Part shown: in pieces, positions 6,530-43,409 of the stretch | Position numbering within the stretch: position 1 is the stretch's first letter | Layout of the letters: every line of letters begins with the position of its first letter | Assembly: GCA_905221195.1 (NCBI GenBank) | Contig: CAJNCF010000009.1 | Location: 1 to 64,000 of the forward strand | From: a bacterium | GTDB taxonomy: Bacteria; Bacillota; Bacilli; Lactobacillales; Streptococcaceae | Direction of reading: 5' to 3' | Length of the DNA: 64,000 bases | Made by a program: the position numbers and the translations under genes | The notes under the pieces: generated by a model | Databases searched by the model: none | Told to the model about the DNA's origin: nothing | What the model saw: only the letters and a program-made list of their open reading frames with translations

Positions 6530-6560
6530 GACTGAAACACTAGATTTCAGCCTTTTTCTT
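6530..6560. terminator. Terminator after trpZ, probably bidirectional
   Basis: An eight-base-pair stem (GACTGAAA at 6530-6537 with TTTCAGCC at 6545-6552, one G-U pair) has T-rich runs on both sides. On the minus strand it follows the trpZ stop directly. Confidence 0.75.
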
Positions 6561-7363
6561 TATCCCAAAACCAATTCATTACTGACCAGACTTTGGCCAC
6601 TATTTTTCTGGAAGAGATGCATGAGATCTTCAACCGTCAGATGCTTTTTCTCCTCTCCCTTGACATCCACCACTATCTTGCCTTGATAGAGCATAATGAG
6701 ACGATTGCCGTACTCAATCGCATGATTCATATCATGGGTAATCATCAGAGTAGTCAACTGATGGTGGTCCACAATCTTTTGCGTCAAGTCCATCACCATT
6801 TGACTCGTTTTCGGGTCAAGTGCCGCAGTGTGTTCATCCAACAATAAGAGCTTAGGTTTTACCAAGGCTGCCATGACTAGGGTCAAGGCCTGTCTCTGCC
6901 CTCCTGAAAGGTATTGAGTATCCACTTTCAAACGATTTTCAAGACCAATATTCAACTCTTTCAAGGCCTCTTGGAACTGGATTCTGTCCTTCTCCTTCAC
7001 GCCCCAGCCAAGTCCTCTCTTCTGTCCGCGCCTCAAGGCAATAGCCATATTCTCCTCAATCGTCAAACGAGAAGCTGTTCCCATCTTAGGATCCTGAAAA
7101 ACACGGGCAATATCCTTGGCTCTCTTTCGTACACTCAGATTTTTAATGGATTTCCCTTCCAACAAAAGATCCCCTTCGTCCACAGATAGATTTCCAGCCA
7201 AGATATTCATTAAAGTGGATTTCCCTGCGCCATTTCCACCAATCACAGAGATAAAATCTCCCTCTTCAACCTCTAAATCTAATCCTTTGAGGACATGGTT
7301 TTCATTGACCGTCCCTGCTTCAAATGTTTTGTGAATATTTTCAAGTGTTAACAAGCTTGCCAT
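6560..7363 (-). CDS. trpZ: ABC transporter ATP-binding protein of the TrpXYZ-type system
   Basis: 267 residues, the ATPase of an amino-acid ABC importer. Walker A GGNGAGKST (about 42-50), Q-loop RVFQDP, signature YLSGGQRQ, Walker B LLLLDEHTAALDP and H-loop THD are all intact. Note LDEHTAAL where most ABC proteins have LDEPT. It lies 12 bases after trpY. The PF04392-type binding protein (trpX) marks this as the family PGAP calls tryptophan transporter; real specificity is not proven. Confidence 0.88.
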   Translation of the reverse strand: MASLLTLENIHKTFEAGTVNENHVLKGLDLEVEEGDFISVIGGNGAGKSTLMNILAGNLSVDEGDLLLEGKSIKNLSVRKRAKDIARVFQDPKMGTASRLTIEENMAIALRRGQKRGLGWGVKEKDRIQFQEALKELNIGLENRLKVDTQYLSGGQRQALTLVMAALVKPKLLLLDEHTAALDPKTSQMVMDLTQKIVDHHQLTTLMITHDMNHAIEYGNRLIMLYQGKIVVDVKGEEKKHLTVEDLMHLFQKNSGQSLVSNELVLG

Positions 7364-7375
7364 AACTTTCTCCTC

Positions 7376-8269
7376 CTATTCATTTCTTAGTTTCAAACCA
7401 CGAATCTTTAATCTCTTTTGCAATTCTGGCGCAAATAAAACCAAGGCTAGCAAGATCGCATTAAAGAGACGAACTAGATTTTGATCTAAATTTGGAATTT
7501 CATAGATATTTAAAATAATCAAACGATAAACAATAGCACCGATTCCGATGGATAACAAGCGGCCTCCAATGGTCAAATCGTGAATCAAGACTTCTGCAAT
7601 AATGACTGCACTCAAACCAACAACGATGGTTCCTGTCCCAGAAGTTACATCTGAAAATCCATCATTCTGAGCAAATAAGGAACCACATAGGGCAATCAAA
7701 CCATTTGAAATCATGTAACCAACAATCTTCATCGTGTCTACATTGACCCCATTGGCCTCACTCATCGGAATATTGTCCCCAGTCGAACGCAAGACTAATC
7801 CAATCTCCGTTTTCATCAAAAGAGTCAAGACCAAACAAACAAGTAAGAGACAGGCTAAACTGAATGAGAAAACAGCTTCTTCAGTTGTCAGCCCCAAGCG
7901 CGCCAACTGTTTAAAGACAGTTGAAGAATCTCCCAAGGAAAGATTGGGCACACTTCCCATGATTTTAATATTGATTGAATAGAGCCCGGTCAAGGTCACA
8001 ATCCCTGTCAAGAGAGCTGGGATTTTCATCTTGGTGTGGAGCATTCCTGATACAAGACCAGCAATCATACCTGCCAGCACAGCAAGTAAGGTCGCAATCC
8101 AAGGATTAGCCCCTGCCTGTATCTGCGATACAACGACAGCTGCACCCAGAGGAAAGGCTCCTTCAGCAGTCATATCCGCAATATCCAAAATACGGAAAGT
8201 CAAGTAAACTCCAATGGCCATAATCGACCATAGCAAACCTTCTGATAAACTAGATAATACAAAACTCAT
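7376..8269 (-). CDS. trpY: ABC transporter permease of the TrpXYZ-type system
   Basis: 297 residues with about eight to nine hydrophobic segments. The fold resembles the BPD_transp_2/branched-chain permease family; SEGLLWSIMAIGVYLTFRILDIADMTAEGAFPLGAA at the N-terminus is characteristic of permeases paired with PF04392 binding proteins. It sits between the binding protein (10 bases upstream) and the ATPase (12 bases downstream) in one operon. Confidence 0.88.
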   Translation of the reverse strand: MSFVLSSLSEGLLWSIMAIGVYLTFRILDIADMTAEGAFPLGAAVVVSQIQAGANPWIATLLAVLAGMIAGLVSGMLHTKMKIPALLTGIVTLTGLYSINIKIMGSVPNLSLGDSSTVFKQLARLGLTTEEAVFSFSLACLLLVCLVLTLLMKTEIGLVLRSTGDNIPMSEANGVNVDTMKIVGYMISNGLIALCGSLFAQNDGFSDVTSGTGTIVVGLSAVIIAEVLIHDLTIGGRLLSIGIGAIVYRLIILNIYEIPNLDQNLVRLFNAILLALVLFAPELQKRLKIRGLKLRNE

Positions 8270-8279
8270 CTTAAACCTC

Positions 8280-9257
8280 CTATTCCTTGCTCTCTAACTT
8301 ACTAATATCAATTCCTAGTGCATCTGCCATTTCTTGATTGGTATGCAATTCCAGTTTTTCAGGCAACTCAACTGCCATATTTTCTGGCTTCTCACCTTTT
8401 AAAACACGAATCAACATACGGGCTGTCTGTCTTCCCAATTCTTCATAATTGGTTCCGTAGTTATACAAACCACCAACAGCAATCATTTCTGTTGAACCAC
8501 CAAATACTGGAACCTTGTGTTTAATAGAAACCTGCTTGACTGTTTCCATGGTTGACGAAATGATATTGTCCGTTGGTACAAAAACCATATCCACTTCTGC
8601 CATCAAACTCTCTGCTGCCGCCTTGACGTTGTTACTGTCCAAGATTGTTTTTTCAACAACGGTAAAGCCTTTTTCTTCTAGAAGACGCTTAGCTTCATCC
8701 TTTTGGACAACTGAGTTTGGCTCGCTCTGAGTATAGAGAATTCCAATTGTTTTAGCCTTTGGTAACACTTTCTTTATCAAATTGATTTGGGTTGAAATGG
8801 CATCTGATGACTGGTCGCTTGTTCCAGTTACATTGCCCCCAGGATGTTCTCTTGACTCAACCAGCTTGGCACTGACAGGATCTGTTACAGCTGAAAAGAT
8901 AACAGGAGTCGTTTGTGTTGTATTAGCCAAGCTCTGAGCAGAAGGCGTTGCGATGGCTAGAACGACATCACTAGATTCTGCTAGTTGCTGGGAAATGGTT
9001 TTTAGATTTCTTTGTTCTCCCTGTGCATTTTGCAAATCAATCTCAATATTTTTCCCTTCCACATAGCCTTGCTTGGCCAGCTCATCTACAAAACCTTCTC
9101 TAGTAGCGTCTAGGGACTGGTGGGTAATAAACTGCGAAATCCCGATACGAAACACATCTTTTTTCTTATCTGCCTTCAACTGATGCAAACTAATCAGAGA
9201 GGTCAAGAGGATCCCCACCACCAAGAGGGGGGCTAGTAATTTTCGAACAACTTTCAT
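8280..9257 (-). CDS. trpX: ABC transporter substrate-binding protein (PF04392, TrpX type)
   Basis: 325 residues. An N-terminal hydrophobic segment (LLAPLLVVGILLTSLI) lacks a lipobox cysteine, so the protein is probably held by an uncleaved anchor rather than a lipid. The rest is the ABC_sub_bind fold: FRIGISQFITHQSLD, PVIFSAVTDPVSAKLV, GNVTGTSDQ. Database naming is tryptophan transport, but the leader peptide upstream is rich in Phe and Tyr codons and has no Trp codon, so phenylalanine/tyrosine uptake is also possible. RBS AAGGAG. A BOX element and an attenuator lie between promoter and start. Confidence 0.87.
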   Translation of the reverse strand: MKVVRKLLAPLLVVGILLTSLISLHQLKADKKKDVFRIGISQFITHQSLDATREGFVDELAKQGYVEGKNIEIDLQNAQGEQRNLKTISQQLAESSDVVLAIATPSAQSLANTTQTTPVIFSAVTDPVSAKLVESREHPGGNVTGTSDQSSDAISTQINLIKKVLPKAKTIGILYTQSEPNSVVQKDEAKRLLEEKGFTVVEKTILDSNNVKAAAESLMAEVDMVFVPTDNIISSTMETVKQVSIKHKVPVFGGSTEMIAVGGLYNYGTNYEELGRQTARMLIRVLKGEKPENMAVELPEKLELHTNQEMADALGIDISKLESKE

Positions 9258-9283
9258 AATGAAACTCCTTCTCAGAAAAGATA

Positions 9284-9387
9284 ATACTCAATGAAAATCA
9301 AAGAGCAAACTAGGAAACTAGCCGCAGGCTGTACTTGAGTACGGCAAGGCGACGTTGACGTGGTTTGAAGAGATTTTCGAAGAGTAT
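9284..9387 (-). repeat. BOX element, boxA-boxC form without boxB
   Basis: 104 bases bounded by ATACTC and GAGTAT. The boxA core (CGGCAAGGCGACGTTGACG) and the boxC part (CAAACTAGGAAACTAGCCGC) are present; boxB is absent. It lies inside the trpXYZ transcript, between the leader terminator and the trpX start. Confidence 0.9.
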
Positions 9388-9389
9388 AA

Positions 9390-9563
9390 AACAAAAAACC
9401 GCCTAGATAATATCTAAACGGATGCTTGAAATAATCTAACAAGTTATAACTTTGCTAGTCCATTTAGATATTCATCTATATGGACCACAATCAAAAATCT
9501 TAGCCACATAGATACAAACAAATTGCTTGAACTGTTTGCATCCATGGTGACATGTCTACAAAC
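9390..9563 (-). promoter_or_regulatory. Candidate transcription attenuator of trpXYZ (alternative RNA hairpins plus terminator)
   Basis: Reading the minus strand, the segments are: a hairpin at 9563-9534; s3 ATCTATGTGG ending at 9504; s4 CCATATAGAT (9483-9474); s5 ATCTAAATGG (9469-9460); s6 CCGTTTAGAT (9421-9412); s7 ATCTAGGCGG (9408-9399) followed by six Ts. s6:s7 is an intrinsic terminator. s5 pairs with s6 over ten bases (antiterminator) and also with s4. s4 pairs with s3 with one G-U. So s3:s4 plus s5:s6 (read-through) excludes s4:s5 plus s6:s7 (stop). The T-box motif GGUGGNACCGCG is absent. The pairings are seen; the regulatory function is inferred. Confidence 0.72.
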
Positions 9564-9564
9564 A

Positions 9565-9624
9565 CTATCTAAAGTAGCTAAAGTAAAAGTTTTGATTCAT
9601 TGTTACAGCTTGTCTTTTATTCAT
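9565..9624 (-). CDS. Predicted leader peptide rich in Phe and Tyr
   Basis: A 19-residue reading frame, MNKRQAVTMNQNFYFSYFR, lies 33 bases after the -10 of the trpXYZ promoter and ends two bases before the first hairpin of the attenuator. Five of its last seven residues are aromatic (F13, Y14, F15, Y17, F18; positions 9571-9588). A second in-frame ATG at 9600 would give an 11-residue version. Neither start has a strong Shine-Dalgarno sequence. The position and codon bias are what a ribosome-stalling attenuation peptide would show. Translation is not proven. Confidence 0.6.
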   Translation of the reverse strand: MNKRQAVTMNQNFYFSYFR

Positions 9625-9656
9625 TTCTTTTTCTGCTTTCTTTTTTGATGTTTCCT

Positions 9657-9685
9657 ATCTTACCACCTTTTTCATCAGCTGTCAA
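9657..9685 (-). promoter_or_regulatory. Promoter of the trpXYZ leader
   Basis: TTGACA (9685-9680), 17-base spacer, TAAGAT (9662-9657) on the minus strand. Perfect -35. It lies 400 bases upstream of trpX, which is what reveals the long leader. Confidence 0.88.
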
Positions 9686-9805
9686 GAATATTTCAGAATT
9701 TTTTAAATTTTTTCGAAAATTCTTTCAGATCCCTTTCAAAACGAGTCCAACAAAAAAAGTTTTATAATTCCCATAAAAATTGACATGGAAATTATAAAAC
9801 CATTA

Positions 9806-10732
9806 TTAGTTTAATCCTTGTTTGTATCGTGCCAATTCGGCTTGATTAGCCCAAACATAGTGACCTGGACGGATTTCAACCATGGATGGCTTATCAGTCT
9901 CATAGTCGTGTTGACTTGGGTCGTAAACCTTCAAGATCTTCTTGCGTTCCAAGATTGGATCTGGAATTGGTACCGCTGAAAGCAAGGCCTGAGTATATGG
10001 GTGAATTGGATTGTTAAACAATTCTTCTGTTTCTGCAACCTCTACAATAACACCCTTATAAATAACTGCGATACGATCTGAAATAAAGCGAACGACCGAC
10101 AAGTCATGGGCGATAAAGAGATAGGTCAAACCGAGCTCTTTTTGGAATTTTTTAAGCAAGTTCAAGACTTGGGCACGAACAGAAACGTCCAAGGCTGAAA
10201 TTGGCTCATCCGCAATAACAAAGTCTGGTTGCATGACCAAAGCACGGGCAATACCGATACGTTGACGTTGACCACCTGAAAACTCATGAGGGTAACGAGT
10301 CAAATGCTCGGCAAGAAGACCCACTTCACGGATAATATTTTTAACTTTCTCTTTACGTTCTTCTTCATCCTTAAACAGACTGTGATTGTAAAGACCTTCA
10401 GAAATAATATAATCAACAGTCGCACGTTCATTCAAACTTGCCGCAGGGTCTTGAAAAATCATCTGGATACGACGAATCAATTCCGCGGCTTGTTCACGCG
10501 ATTTCTTACCATTGATCTTTTGACCTTCAAAAATGATATCTCCATTACTTGTATCATTAAGACCGATGATAGCACGACCAATAGTTGTTTTCCCACTTCC
10601 TGACTCACCTACAAGCGAGAAGGTTTCTCCCTTGTTGATAAAGAAGTTAGCATTTTTAACCGCGACAAACTTCTTACTTCCTTCACCGAAGGAAATTTCT
10701 AAATCTTTGATTTCTACTAATTTTTCAGACAT
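9806..10732 (-). CDS. amiF: Oligopeptide permease ATP-binding protein AmiF
   Basis: 308 residues, the second ATPase of the Ami oligopeptide importer. Walker [11 protein letters not shown]-loop MIFQDP, signature FSGGQRQR, Walker B FVIADEP and the OppF-type C-terminal extension ([17 protein letters not shown]) are present. The start at 10732 is supported by GGAGGAAGG just upstream; an in-frame ATG at 10801 lies inside amiE. Last gene of the ami operon, 10 bases after amiE. Confidence 0.96.
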
Positions 10733-10742
10733 TTCCTTCCTC

Positions 10743-11810
10743 CTAGTCTGCCAGATGAGCAAATCCCATTTTATCACGGATCTTATCGTGAAGATTTGCA
10801 ATCACAGCTGGTTTTTCTACTTTTGGAGCATCCTCATGAAGAAGCCAAGTTTTAGCCCAATGCGTCTCTGATACTGAGAATTGAGGAGCTTTTTGTTCAA
10901 AGTCAATTTGCATTGCGTAGTCTGAACGCAAGGCAAAGGCATCCCCTTTCAGGTCAGTATAAAGTGACGGAGGTGTTCCTGGGATTGAGTAAAGTTCCCC
11001 TTTATCATCAGCAAGCTGAGGCAAGCTAGACAAGAGACTCCATGTATATGGATGGCGAGGGTCATAGAAGACTTCCTCAACAGTTCCATATTCAACGATT
11101 TCTCCTGCATACATAACCGCTACCTTATCCGCAATACTTGCTACCACACCAAGGTCGTGGGTAATAAAGATTGTTGTGAAATGGTACTCGTTTTGTAATG
11201 ATTTGAGCAAATCAATAATCTGTGCTTGGATAGTCACATCCAAGGCTGTCGTTGGCTCATCACAGATCAAGACATCAGGTCGGCAGGCAAGGGCAATAGC
11301 AATAACGATACGTTGACGCATTCCTCCAGAATATTGGAATGGGTATTCATCAAAACGTCTATCTGCGTCTGGAATCCCAACCTTATTCATGTAGTCAATG
11401 GCCAATTCTTTTGCTTCTTTAGCTGTTTTTCCTTGGTGTTTTACAATAACTTCTGTAATCTGACTACCAATGGTTTTAATTGGGTCCAAACTAGTCATTG
11501 GGTCCTGGAAGATAGTCGCAATCTTAGCACCACGAATTTGTTCCCAATCCTTATGAGAAGACAAGGCTGTCAAATCCTGACCACGATAGTCAATGCTACC
11601 TTGAGCAATACGACCATTTTCTTCAAGCATACCTGTGAAAGTCTTTGTCAAAACAGATTTACCTGATCCTGACTCACCTACCAAGGCCAACACTTCGCCT
11701 TCAACTAGTTCAAGGGAAACGCCGCGAATGGCTGTCAATACTTTGTCACGAACGTCAAATTCCACGACAATATCGCGAGCAGTCAAAATTACATTTTTTT
11801 CTTTTGTCAT
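10743..11810 (-). CDS. amiE: Oligopeptide permease ATP-binding protein AmiE
   Basis: 355 residues, the first ATPase of the Ami system. Walker [10 protein letters not shown] (about 40-48), Q-loop [12 protein letters not shown], signature YSGGMRQR, Walker [13 protein letters not shown] and the OppD-type [14 protein letters not shown] tail are present. It couples ATP hydrolysis to peptide import, including signalling peptides, and works with the AmiA/AliA/AliB binding proteins. Eight bases after amiD. Confidence 0.97.
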
Positions 11811-43258: not shown

Positions 43259-43409
43259 ATACTCTTCGAAAATCTCTTCAAACCACGTCAGCTTCACCTT
43301 GCCGTAGGTATGGTTACTGACTTCGTCAGTTCTATCTACAACCTCAAAGCAGTGCTTCGAGCAGCCTGCGGCTAGCTTTCTAGTTTGTTCTTTGATTTTC
43401 ACTGAGTAT
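43259..43409 (+). repeat. BOX element, boxA-boxB-boxC
   Basis: About 151 bases in A-B-C order on the plus strand with one complete boxB (GACTTCGTCAGTTCTATCTA onward). It lies between convergent kimA and aliB. Confidence 0.9.

Follow-up and report, generated by a model that had tools for sequence, protein, structure and literature searches.

In the trp and pheA attenuators of Escherichia coli, a leader peptide carries codons of the sensed amino acid, and a ribosome stalled there masks an RNA segment so that the terminator is avoided. Gram-positive leader-peptide attenuators with branched-chain codons are described for Listeria Rli60, which was at first predicted to be a riboswitch or a small RNA, and for the Staphylococcus aureus ilvD leader; the published descriptions, as far as their accessible parts go (PMC5864092, PMC5794164), set both apart from the scaffold considered here by their folds, and predicted leaders in Lactococcus and Streptococcus are cited in the second of these papers. 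Sensed-codon leader peptides also precede amino-acid genes in the His attenuators of Firmicutes (PMC9413887) and aroF in an Acholeplasma uORF motif (PMC8632094), systems that the available portions of these reports describe as belonging to other bacterial groups and other motifs. In the bacteria treated below, the sensing of tRNA charging is ascribed chiefly to T-boxes. One of these, the Trp T-box of streptococcal trpX (accessible text of PMC9382623 and PMC10942264), resembles the present case as proposed here, in that tRNA charging is sensed and a paralogous importer is controlled. Finally, Putative_sRNA_2410 of Enterococcus faecium Aus0004 is reported, in the part of PMC5593968 available, as a 195-nt transcript with two transcripts on Northern blots; judging by the name, Rfam family RF02863 (sRNA_2410) would derive from it.

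Here we consider a leader switch located between amiF (9806-10801, a name we assume from position and fold) and the genes of an ABC importer, on the minus strand of the window, that is, the whole 64,000-nt stretch of DNA analysed. We interpret this element as a ribosome-mediated transcription attenuator that probably senses Phe/Tyr (probability roughly 0.85). The likeness to the E. coli attenuators lies in the leader rich in sensed codons and in the masking of a segment by a stalled ribosome, with the terminator avoided. In contrast to them, the relay here is longer (L plus seven segments), the leader codons themselves pair inside the switch, and one scaffold appears re-coded for several amino acids. 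Attenuators of this kind are known; the literature surveyed, as far as its accessible parts go, did not yield a description of the scaffold, of the relay or of re-coding inside a single RNA family. In that survey of titles and abstract openings, mostly outside subscription papers, no title described this scaffold, a search for the peptide phrase YFSYFR gave no match, and the available parts of PMC3166299, PMC2887815 and PMC6296669 contain nothing on this locus. The features are listed below in the order of transcription (an asterisk marks a stop codon; segments A to G bore the numbers 1 to 7 in the preliminary description).

9680 to 9685, minus strand: -35 hexamer TTGACA (promoter scan and sequence)
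9657 to 9662, minus strand: -10 hexamer TAAGAT with TG extension, spacer 17 (promoter scan)
9565 to 9624, minus strand: leader ORF of 19 codons, MNKRQAVTMNQNFYFSYFR* (Shine-Dalgarno (SD) pairing about -6.5 kcal/mol)
9565 to 9582, minus strand: segment L, the last codons TTT AGC TAC TTT AGA TAG, 5' strand of the L:C helix
9551 to 9564, minus strand: segment A, partner B
9533 to 9546, minus strand: segment B, partner A or C
9501 to 9519, minus strand: segment C, partner L, B or D
9473 to 9485, minus strand: segment D, partner C or E
9458 to 9472, minus strand: segment E, partner D or F
9410 to 9424, minus strand: segment F, 5' arm of the terminator, partner E or G
9397 to 9409, minus strand: segment G, partner F, 3' terminator arm with a T run after it
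8280 to 9257, minus strand: substrate-binding protein (PF04392), nearest solved relative CD0873, predicted to bind Phe/Tyr (Ser255, Tyr271)
7376 to 8269, minus strand: importer permease (PF02653)
6560 to 7363, minus strand: importer ATP-binding protein (many ABC ATPase models, all listed ones under their cut-offs)

The promoter claimed earlier is present in sequence as TTGACA-17-TAAGAT with TG at 9685-9657, but the site by itself is within chance, because the scan found 3 such sites where 2.9 were expected. From the position of the -10 hexamer, transcription would start near 9650; GGTAAGATAG at the -10 region is common to the loci L001, L004 and L006. The terminator-like hairpin at 9421-9399 with its T run is one of 2 such sites in the scan (0.7 expected), and the 261 nt from 9650 to 9390 fold at -74.9 kcal/mol versus -48.4 (sd 4.4) for 200 shuffles (z -5.96). 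The other of the two terminator-like hairpins (9758-9801, minus strand) lies directly 3' of amiF and sets the ami genes apart from the switch. A repeat at about 9281-9385 (minus strand), which we take to be RUP-like, separates the terminator from the importer gene; its core has two further copies in the window, at 43280 and 59910. The distance from leader to gene is 105 bases shorter in L001 and L003 than in the window.

The Rfam scan proposed in the preliminary description matched the window to a known family, RF02863, at 59.0 bits (E 2.5e-9, model positions 1-196 of 196), the gathering score of 61 not being reached. The features of that family, namely the junction helices UUAGCUA/UGGCUAA and UAGAUA/UAUCUA followed by the D:E hairpin, are all found in the window element, which on this evidence is a divergent relative of RF02863, a homologue just under the curated cutoff. 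The element of an Enterococcus durans importer (L121) scores 145.3 bits. For 9370-9700, no other Rfam family gave anything convincing; as noted earlier, there is no T-box: the window yields none at the Rfam gathering score, and 9370-9700 yields none at E<=10. The RNA is the same as that of RF02863, but Rfam files the family as an sRNA gene. The mechanism had been thought a rarity in streptococci, a view that does not hold for an element occurring across the order and already present in Rfam.

Relatives were compiled in two sets. A BLAST search with 9390-9690 found matches in 33 of 59 relatives' genomes; 27 of the 30 loci derived from it have the exact leader motif, and the three without it (L017, L020, L030) were left out. 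A pattern scan of named genomes added at least 119 stretches, and together with the BLAST loci and the window these make up the first set of at least 147 rows. Among the matches listed, the leader peptide occurs in 131 of 147 rows, including all 127 with the downstream helix motif, and the remaining 16 come from records not named as Lactobacillales; the 131 leader-bearing rows, again among the matches listed, comprise 75 distinct cores. The search itself required TTTAGATA(A/G), which is why this motif does not vary. We analyzed 54 non-redundant elements, including the window, 46 of them in a full-length alignment in which D and E were taken from alignment columns (the hairpins are bulged). The 46 were chosen for having a terminator, and eight elements were left out, either with an unsure terminator (L026, L028, L040, L055, L101) or with segment C outside the pattern (L068, L087, L089). 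The second set contains 195 elements (216 matches less 12 overlapping weaker ones and 9 duplicates), two of which repeat first-set elements (L183=L097, L256=L028). Element counts are not independent, because rows share ancestry.

By model R1, the element is found in 253 of 395 sampled genomes and in 60 of 80 genera of the order; in a phylum sample it occurs in 3 of 299, all three inside the order. The broader model R2 detects it in 49 of 76 genomes of one family (f4) and 77 of 201 of another (f9). In a sample of the class, 20 of 200 genomes carry it, and five of the 20 lie outside the order. Members outside the order (L306-L312, in genomes G730, G835, G862 and G881) lie ahead of importer, transketolase, aminotransferase, DAHP synthase and PheA genes.

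The window element has a short ORF with a start codon, an SD sequence and codons of the presumably regulated amino acids: as previously noted, five of the last seven residues encoded by 9624-9565 are Phe/Tyr. Conservation of the frame among relatives was confirmed, as an in-frame ATG ORF ending at the conserved stop is present in 54/54 elements (other frames 0 and 2), with variable N-termini. An SD match (dG<=-5 kcal/mol) precedes it in 53/54, versus 0.16 at random positions. Phe/Tyr codons outside the search motif occupy three positions in 54/54 elements and a fourth in 49/54; the peptide filter also required one of the three (-3), without removing any row that has the helix motif. In the second set the ORF is in frame in 192/195 (other frames 2 and 14), the stop there being chosen partly by the SD. 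Eight leaders (L241, L248, L249, L252, L254, L260, L261, L316) run past the usual stop and end three codons later (..FRCCL*, ..FRSCL*, ..FRVCL*); such an extension would move the position of the terminating ribosome.

Each of the pairings L:C, A:B, B:C, C:D, D:E, E:F and F:G is more stable than -8 kcal/mol in at least 45 of the 46 elements. The two alternatives proposed in the preliminary description, 3:4 with 5:6 (terminator blocked) and 4:5 with 6:7 (terminator formed), are both present and kept in relatives. We then asked whether cognate strands pair better than swapped ones. They do for L:C, A:B, D:E, E:F and F:G (p 0.0005 each, n=46); B:C (p 0.27) and C:D (p 0.97) have no such advantage in the same 46. 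With swaps confined to four sequence groups, the five pairings hold at p<=0.001. Within eight groups, D:E, E:F and F:G hold and A:B gives p 0.01, whereas L:C cognates are no better than swapped pairs (p 0.76); therefore, L:C co-variation in the first set lies between clades, and overall confidence is slightly lower because of this loss. The retention of F:G is partly selection, since the 46 elements were chosen with a terminator. Among eight pairings that had not been proposed, A:C (p 0.0025) and D:G (p 0.013) were also low; the A:C signal is gone within groups, and D:G stays (p 0.001 and 0.006), as expected if D resembles F.

Counts by alignment column likewise indicate that bases change together, as the preliminary description had anticipated. 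For the structure expected without a ribosome, 90.1% of cells are paired and double-change cells number 79 versus 27.3 in shuffled alignments. The antiterminator structure shows no excess of paired cells (90.2% versus 90.0% shuffled); its double-change cells number 13 versus 7.9 (12 of 500 shuffles were as high). Pairing is poor in parts of D:E (75.5%), F:G (62.0%) and E:F (60.3%), with bulges and alignment accounting for some of this. Mutually exclusive terminator and antiterminator structures linked to the ORF are thus found, the antiterminator being weaker by column counts. A divergent alignment of 79 rows included four that are the wrong strand of another row (L184, L185, L186, L235); in 77 distinct divergent rows (fitted alignment), L:C plus A:B are 94.5% paired, with 189 double-change cells versus 64.6 shuffled. 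In this set both strands vary at every one of the seven pairs in the outer L:C helix. Some of the changes are Phe/Tyr codon exchanges, e.g. U-A to A-U and C-G in columns 14-102 and 15-101. Segment L, then, encodes peptide and helix at once. The constant Ser/Gly, Arg and stop codons sit in the L:C helix with the sensing codons between and around them, and the latter can change given matching changes in C.

How the position of the ribosome could reach segment 3 had been left between two candidates, one of them the 3' end of the leader paired with segment 5. The leader 3' end is probably involved, but its partner is segment 3 (L:C) and not segment 5: for L:E (mean -9.6 kcal/mol), cognate pairs are no better than swapped ones (p 0.87). 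Since segment 3 pairs either with the last leader codons (L:C) or with segment 2 (B:C), ribosome position can set the relay. In the proposed mechanism, a ribosome stalled at a Phe/Tyr codon for want of charged tRNA would cover L and leave A free. A:B could then form, C would pair with D and E with F, which would keep the terminator F:G from forming and let transcription run on into the importer. With amino acids plentiful, a ribosome at the stop codon would cover A as well; B would take C, D would pair with E, and F:G would terminate. Without a ribosome, L:C with A:B nested in it, then D:E and F:G, would likewise keep the importer off.

We folded the 46 elements with ribosome-covered bases blocked and the transcript ending behind F. 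E:F is ahead of D:E in 37-39 of the 46 when the ribosome stalls at one of the first four aromatic codons, in 30 at the last aromatic codon, in 23 at the stop and in 25 without a ribosome. Averaged over the 46, a ribosome at any of the first four aromatic codons leads to A:B, C:D and E:F; the last Phe codon yields a mixture (B:C 9.3 and A:B 2.8 pairs), the stop codon B:C, and the absence of a ribosome L:C. In the cut window transcript, C:D (9.9 expected pairs) and E:F (11.6) are preferred over L:C (1.9) without a ribosome, and even with the ribosome at the stop codon E:F (8.5) remains above D:E (3.2). Once G is part of the fold, E:F is ahead of D:E in no more than 2 of the 46 in any state, and 44-46 of the 46 favour the terminator side; the window element retains its antiterminator only when the stall is at the first or second aromatic codon. 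Stalled states would therefore also terminate at equilibrium, and because the equilibrium folds are contrary to the model, the order of folding during transcription must decide. Comparison among relatives supports the ORF with its frame, the helices and the match of leader codons to the downstream gene, and we infer the stalling on uncharged tRNA, the order of folding and the three-state readout. It might be argued that the leader acts through two states only, L:C against C:D, with the stop-codon state B:C having no role of its own. B:C hardly co-varies, which fits that simpler logic. However, across 54 sequences B:C stays paired in 97.4% of cells, with 2 double-change cells versus 0.2 shuffled (7 of 500 shuffles), and it is the pairing left once a ribosome at the stop covers L and A. 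We consider the two-state version less likely than the three-state one.

The strongest evidence for the attenuator reading is the re-coding of the leader. Second-set elements were labeled from the leader alone (Phe/Tyr 152, Ile/Leu/Val 22, Phe/Tyr with Trp 15, Trp 5, other 1; L298 was relabeled Trp by eye), and downstream genes were clustered separately from leaders, representatives being named by Pfam and NCBIfam. Ahead of branched-chain genes (LivJ-type 11, IlvE 5, IlvA 3, IlvB 2), 21 of 21 elements have Ile/Leu/Val leaders (e.g. ATIISIIR*, NIIISIIR*), versus 1 of the 174 elements ahead of other genes (an OppA-like one; n=195). Downstream of all five Trp leaders (WQ[SG]WHR*) lie TrpX-type importers. 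A Phe/Tyr leader that also contains a Trp codon is found at 4/4 transketolase, 2/3 AroE and 9/13 class I/II aminotransferase genes, and behind Phe/Tyr leaders there are 112 importers, PheA (7), DAHP synthase (3), AroC (2) and others. At Enterococcus-type loci of the first set, the switch lies ahead of runs of aroE, DAHP synthase, aroB, aroC, tyrA and aroA (run checked in L037; aroK and pheA in L040). The match of codons to function could not be judged for BcaP-like permeases (2), DASS-like (3) and MFS (6) transporters, SBP_bac_3 (4), D-2-hydroxyacid dehydrogenases (3) and one OppA-like protein. That leader codons track the downstream gene is hard to explain without a translating ribosome; together with frame conservation and paired base changes, it supports the ribosome-sensed attenuation suggested at the outset.

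An automatic check for C:D, D:E and E:F was passed by 20/22 Ile/Leu/Val, 14/15 Phe/Tyr with Trp, 123/152 Phe/Tyr, 1/5 Trp and 0/1 other elements; in the Trp element L224, a CAAACTATG:CATAGTTTG pairing into the terminator loop was seen by eye and left uncounted. RF02863 does not match the Trp-type elements L224, L225 and L291 at E<=0.01. Three of six Ile/Leu/Val-type elements tested (L204, L207, L194) match it at 40.6-48.9 bits, under the cutoff, and the other three (L209, L211, L215) do not match. Five loci (L208, L324, L326, L343, L359) have two switch copies about 1.3-1.5 kb apart on the same strand, each with its own leader. In L194 (1-239), downstream of an Ile-type switch and on its strand, there is a T-box-like match (68.5 bits, gathering 93) truncated by the end of the locus. 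DASS-like (L217, L212, L282) and MFS (L226, L371, L373, L375, L376, L382) transporters are found behind Phe/Tyr leaders, which suggests an aromatic-related role for them.

The importer of the window had been named trpXYZ. In the accessible part of PMC6816091, Gln at the position of SP1069 Gln-284 is said to admit Trp, and Tyr (CD0873, VC_1101) to exclude it. Behind Trp leaders, the pocket residue is Gln in 5/5 importers; the 110 proteins picked behind Phe/Tyr leaders have 98 Tyr, 11 Phe, 1 Ile (L281, a permease picked in error) and 0 Gln, and in the first set 102 proteins (redundant, the window's counted twice) have Tyr (100) or Phe (2). The window protein has Tyr271, not the Gln of TrpX, and Ser255 at the Glu-263/Ala position, a residue that cannot tell Phe from Tyr. 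Its score against NCBIfam NF041285 (TrpX), 333.6 and under 390, is not discriminating, because scores of 320.6 and 335.1 were obtained for two proteins that follow Trp leaders and have the Gln pocket. The trpXYZ identity was therefore rejected on the pocket residue, the NF041285 score leaving it undecided; the name is probably a misnomer and the importer Phe/Tyr-specific. In 7/7 Streptococcus genomes, all chosen because they hold the switch, the switch lies ahead of importers with a Tyr/Phe pocket, and a separate paralogue has the Gln pocket and an upstream T-box match (RF00230; 4 at gathering score, 3 below). The Trp T-box of trpX thus differs from the present element both in the RNA and in the paralogue controlled.

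The same comparisons bear on readings in which the leader codons are not the sensor. Nascent chains can arrest ribosomes, as TnaC does with Trp, and a peptide ending in ..YFR* might stall the ribosome on free Phe/Tyr and so set the switch. The FR* C-terminus of the first set agrees with this idea. However, the invariant Arg and stop codons belong to the L:C helix, and the search partly fixed them. The N-terminal parts differ among leaders, and with a different gene the sensing residues change to Ile, Leu or Trp, as codon sensing predicts; arrest is accordingly improbable. Still less credible is the idea that the junction is a riboswitch or a protein-binding site responsive to a small molecule, the ORF being incidental: the junction is highly conserved, yet the ORF is in frame and has its SD in nearly every element, and the codons of the leader match what the gene does. 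A small RNA acting in trans, the class under which Rfam files the family, would fit the short E. faecium transcript seen by RNA-seq and Northern blot (available text of PMC5593968), but it has a similarly slight chance, since a terminated leader would look the same and, at the loci read, the element lies in sense ahead of a gene, mostly one for amino-acid transport or synthesis. The element may have an additional role in trans besides that in cis, and the two-transcript Northern blot, as given in the part of PMC5593968 accessible, is the sole hint on terminated leader ends.

Beyond attenuation in the window, we think it likely that the family is a modular, re-codable switch: one conserved scaffold with a plug-in sensor whose specificity depends on about five codons (zzz[S/G]zzR*), distributed across the lactic acid bacterial order and present in a few other Bacilli, serving Phe/Tyr, all three aromatics, Trp or Ile/Leu/Val, replacing T-boxes at some genes and read out in three states. 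If this is true, an Rfam 'sRNA' becomes a cis regulator, and the naturally re-coded sensor provides a ready-made codon-swap series for testing attenuation. It would also present a stretch in which codons and a helix are under joint constraint, and leader codons could suggest the substrates of importers and of unknown transporters.
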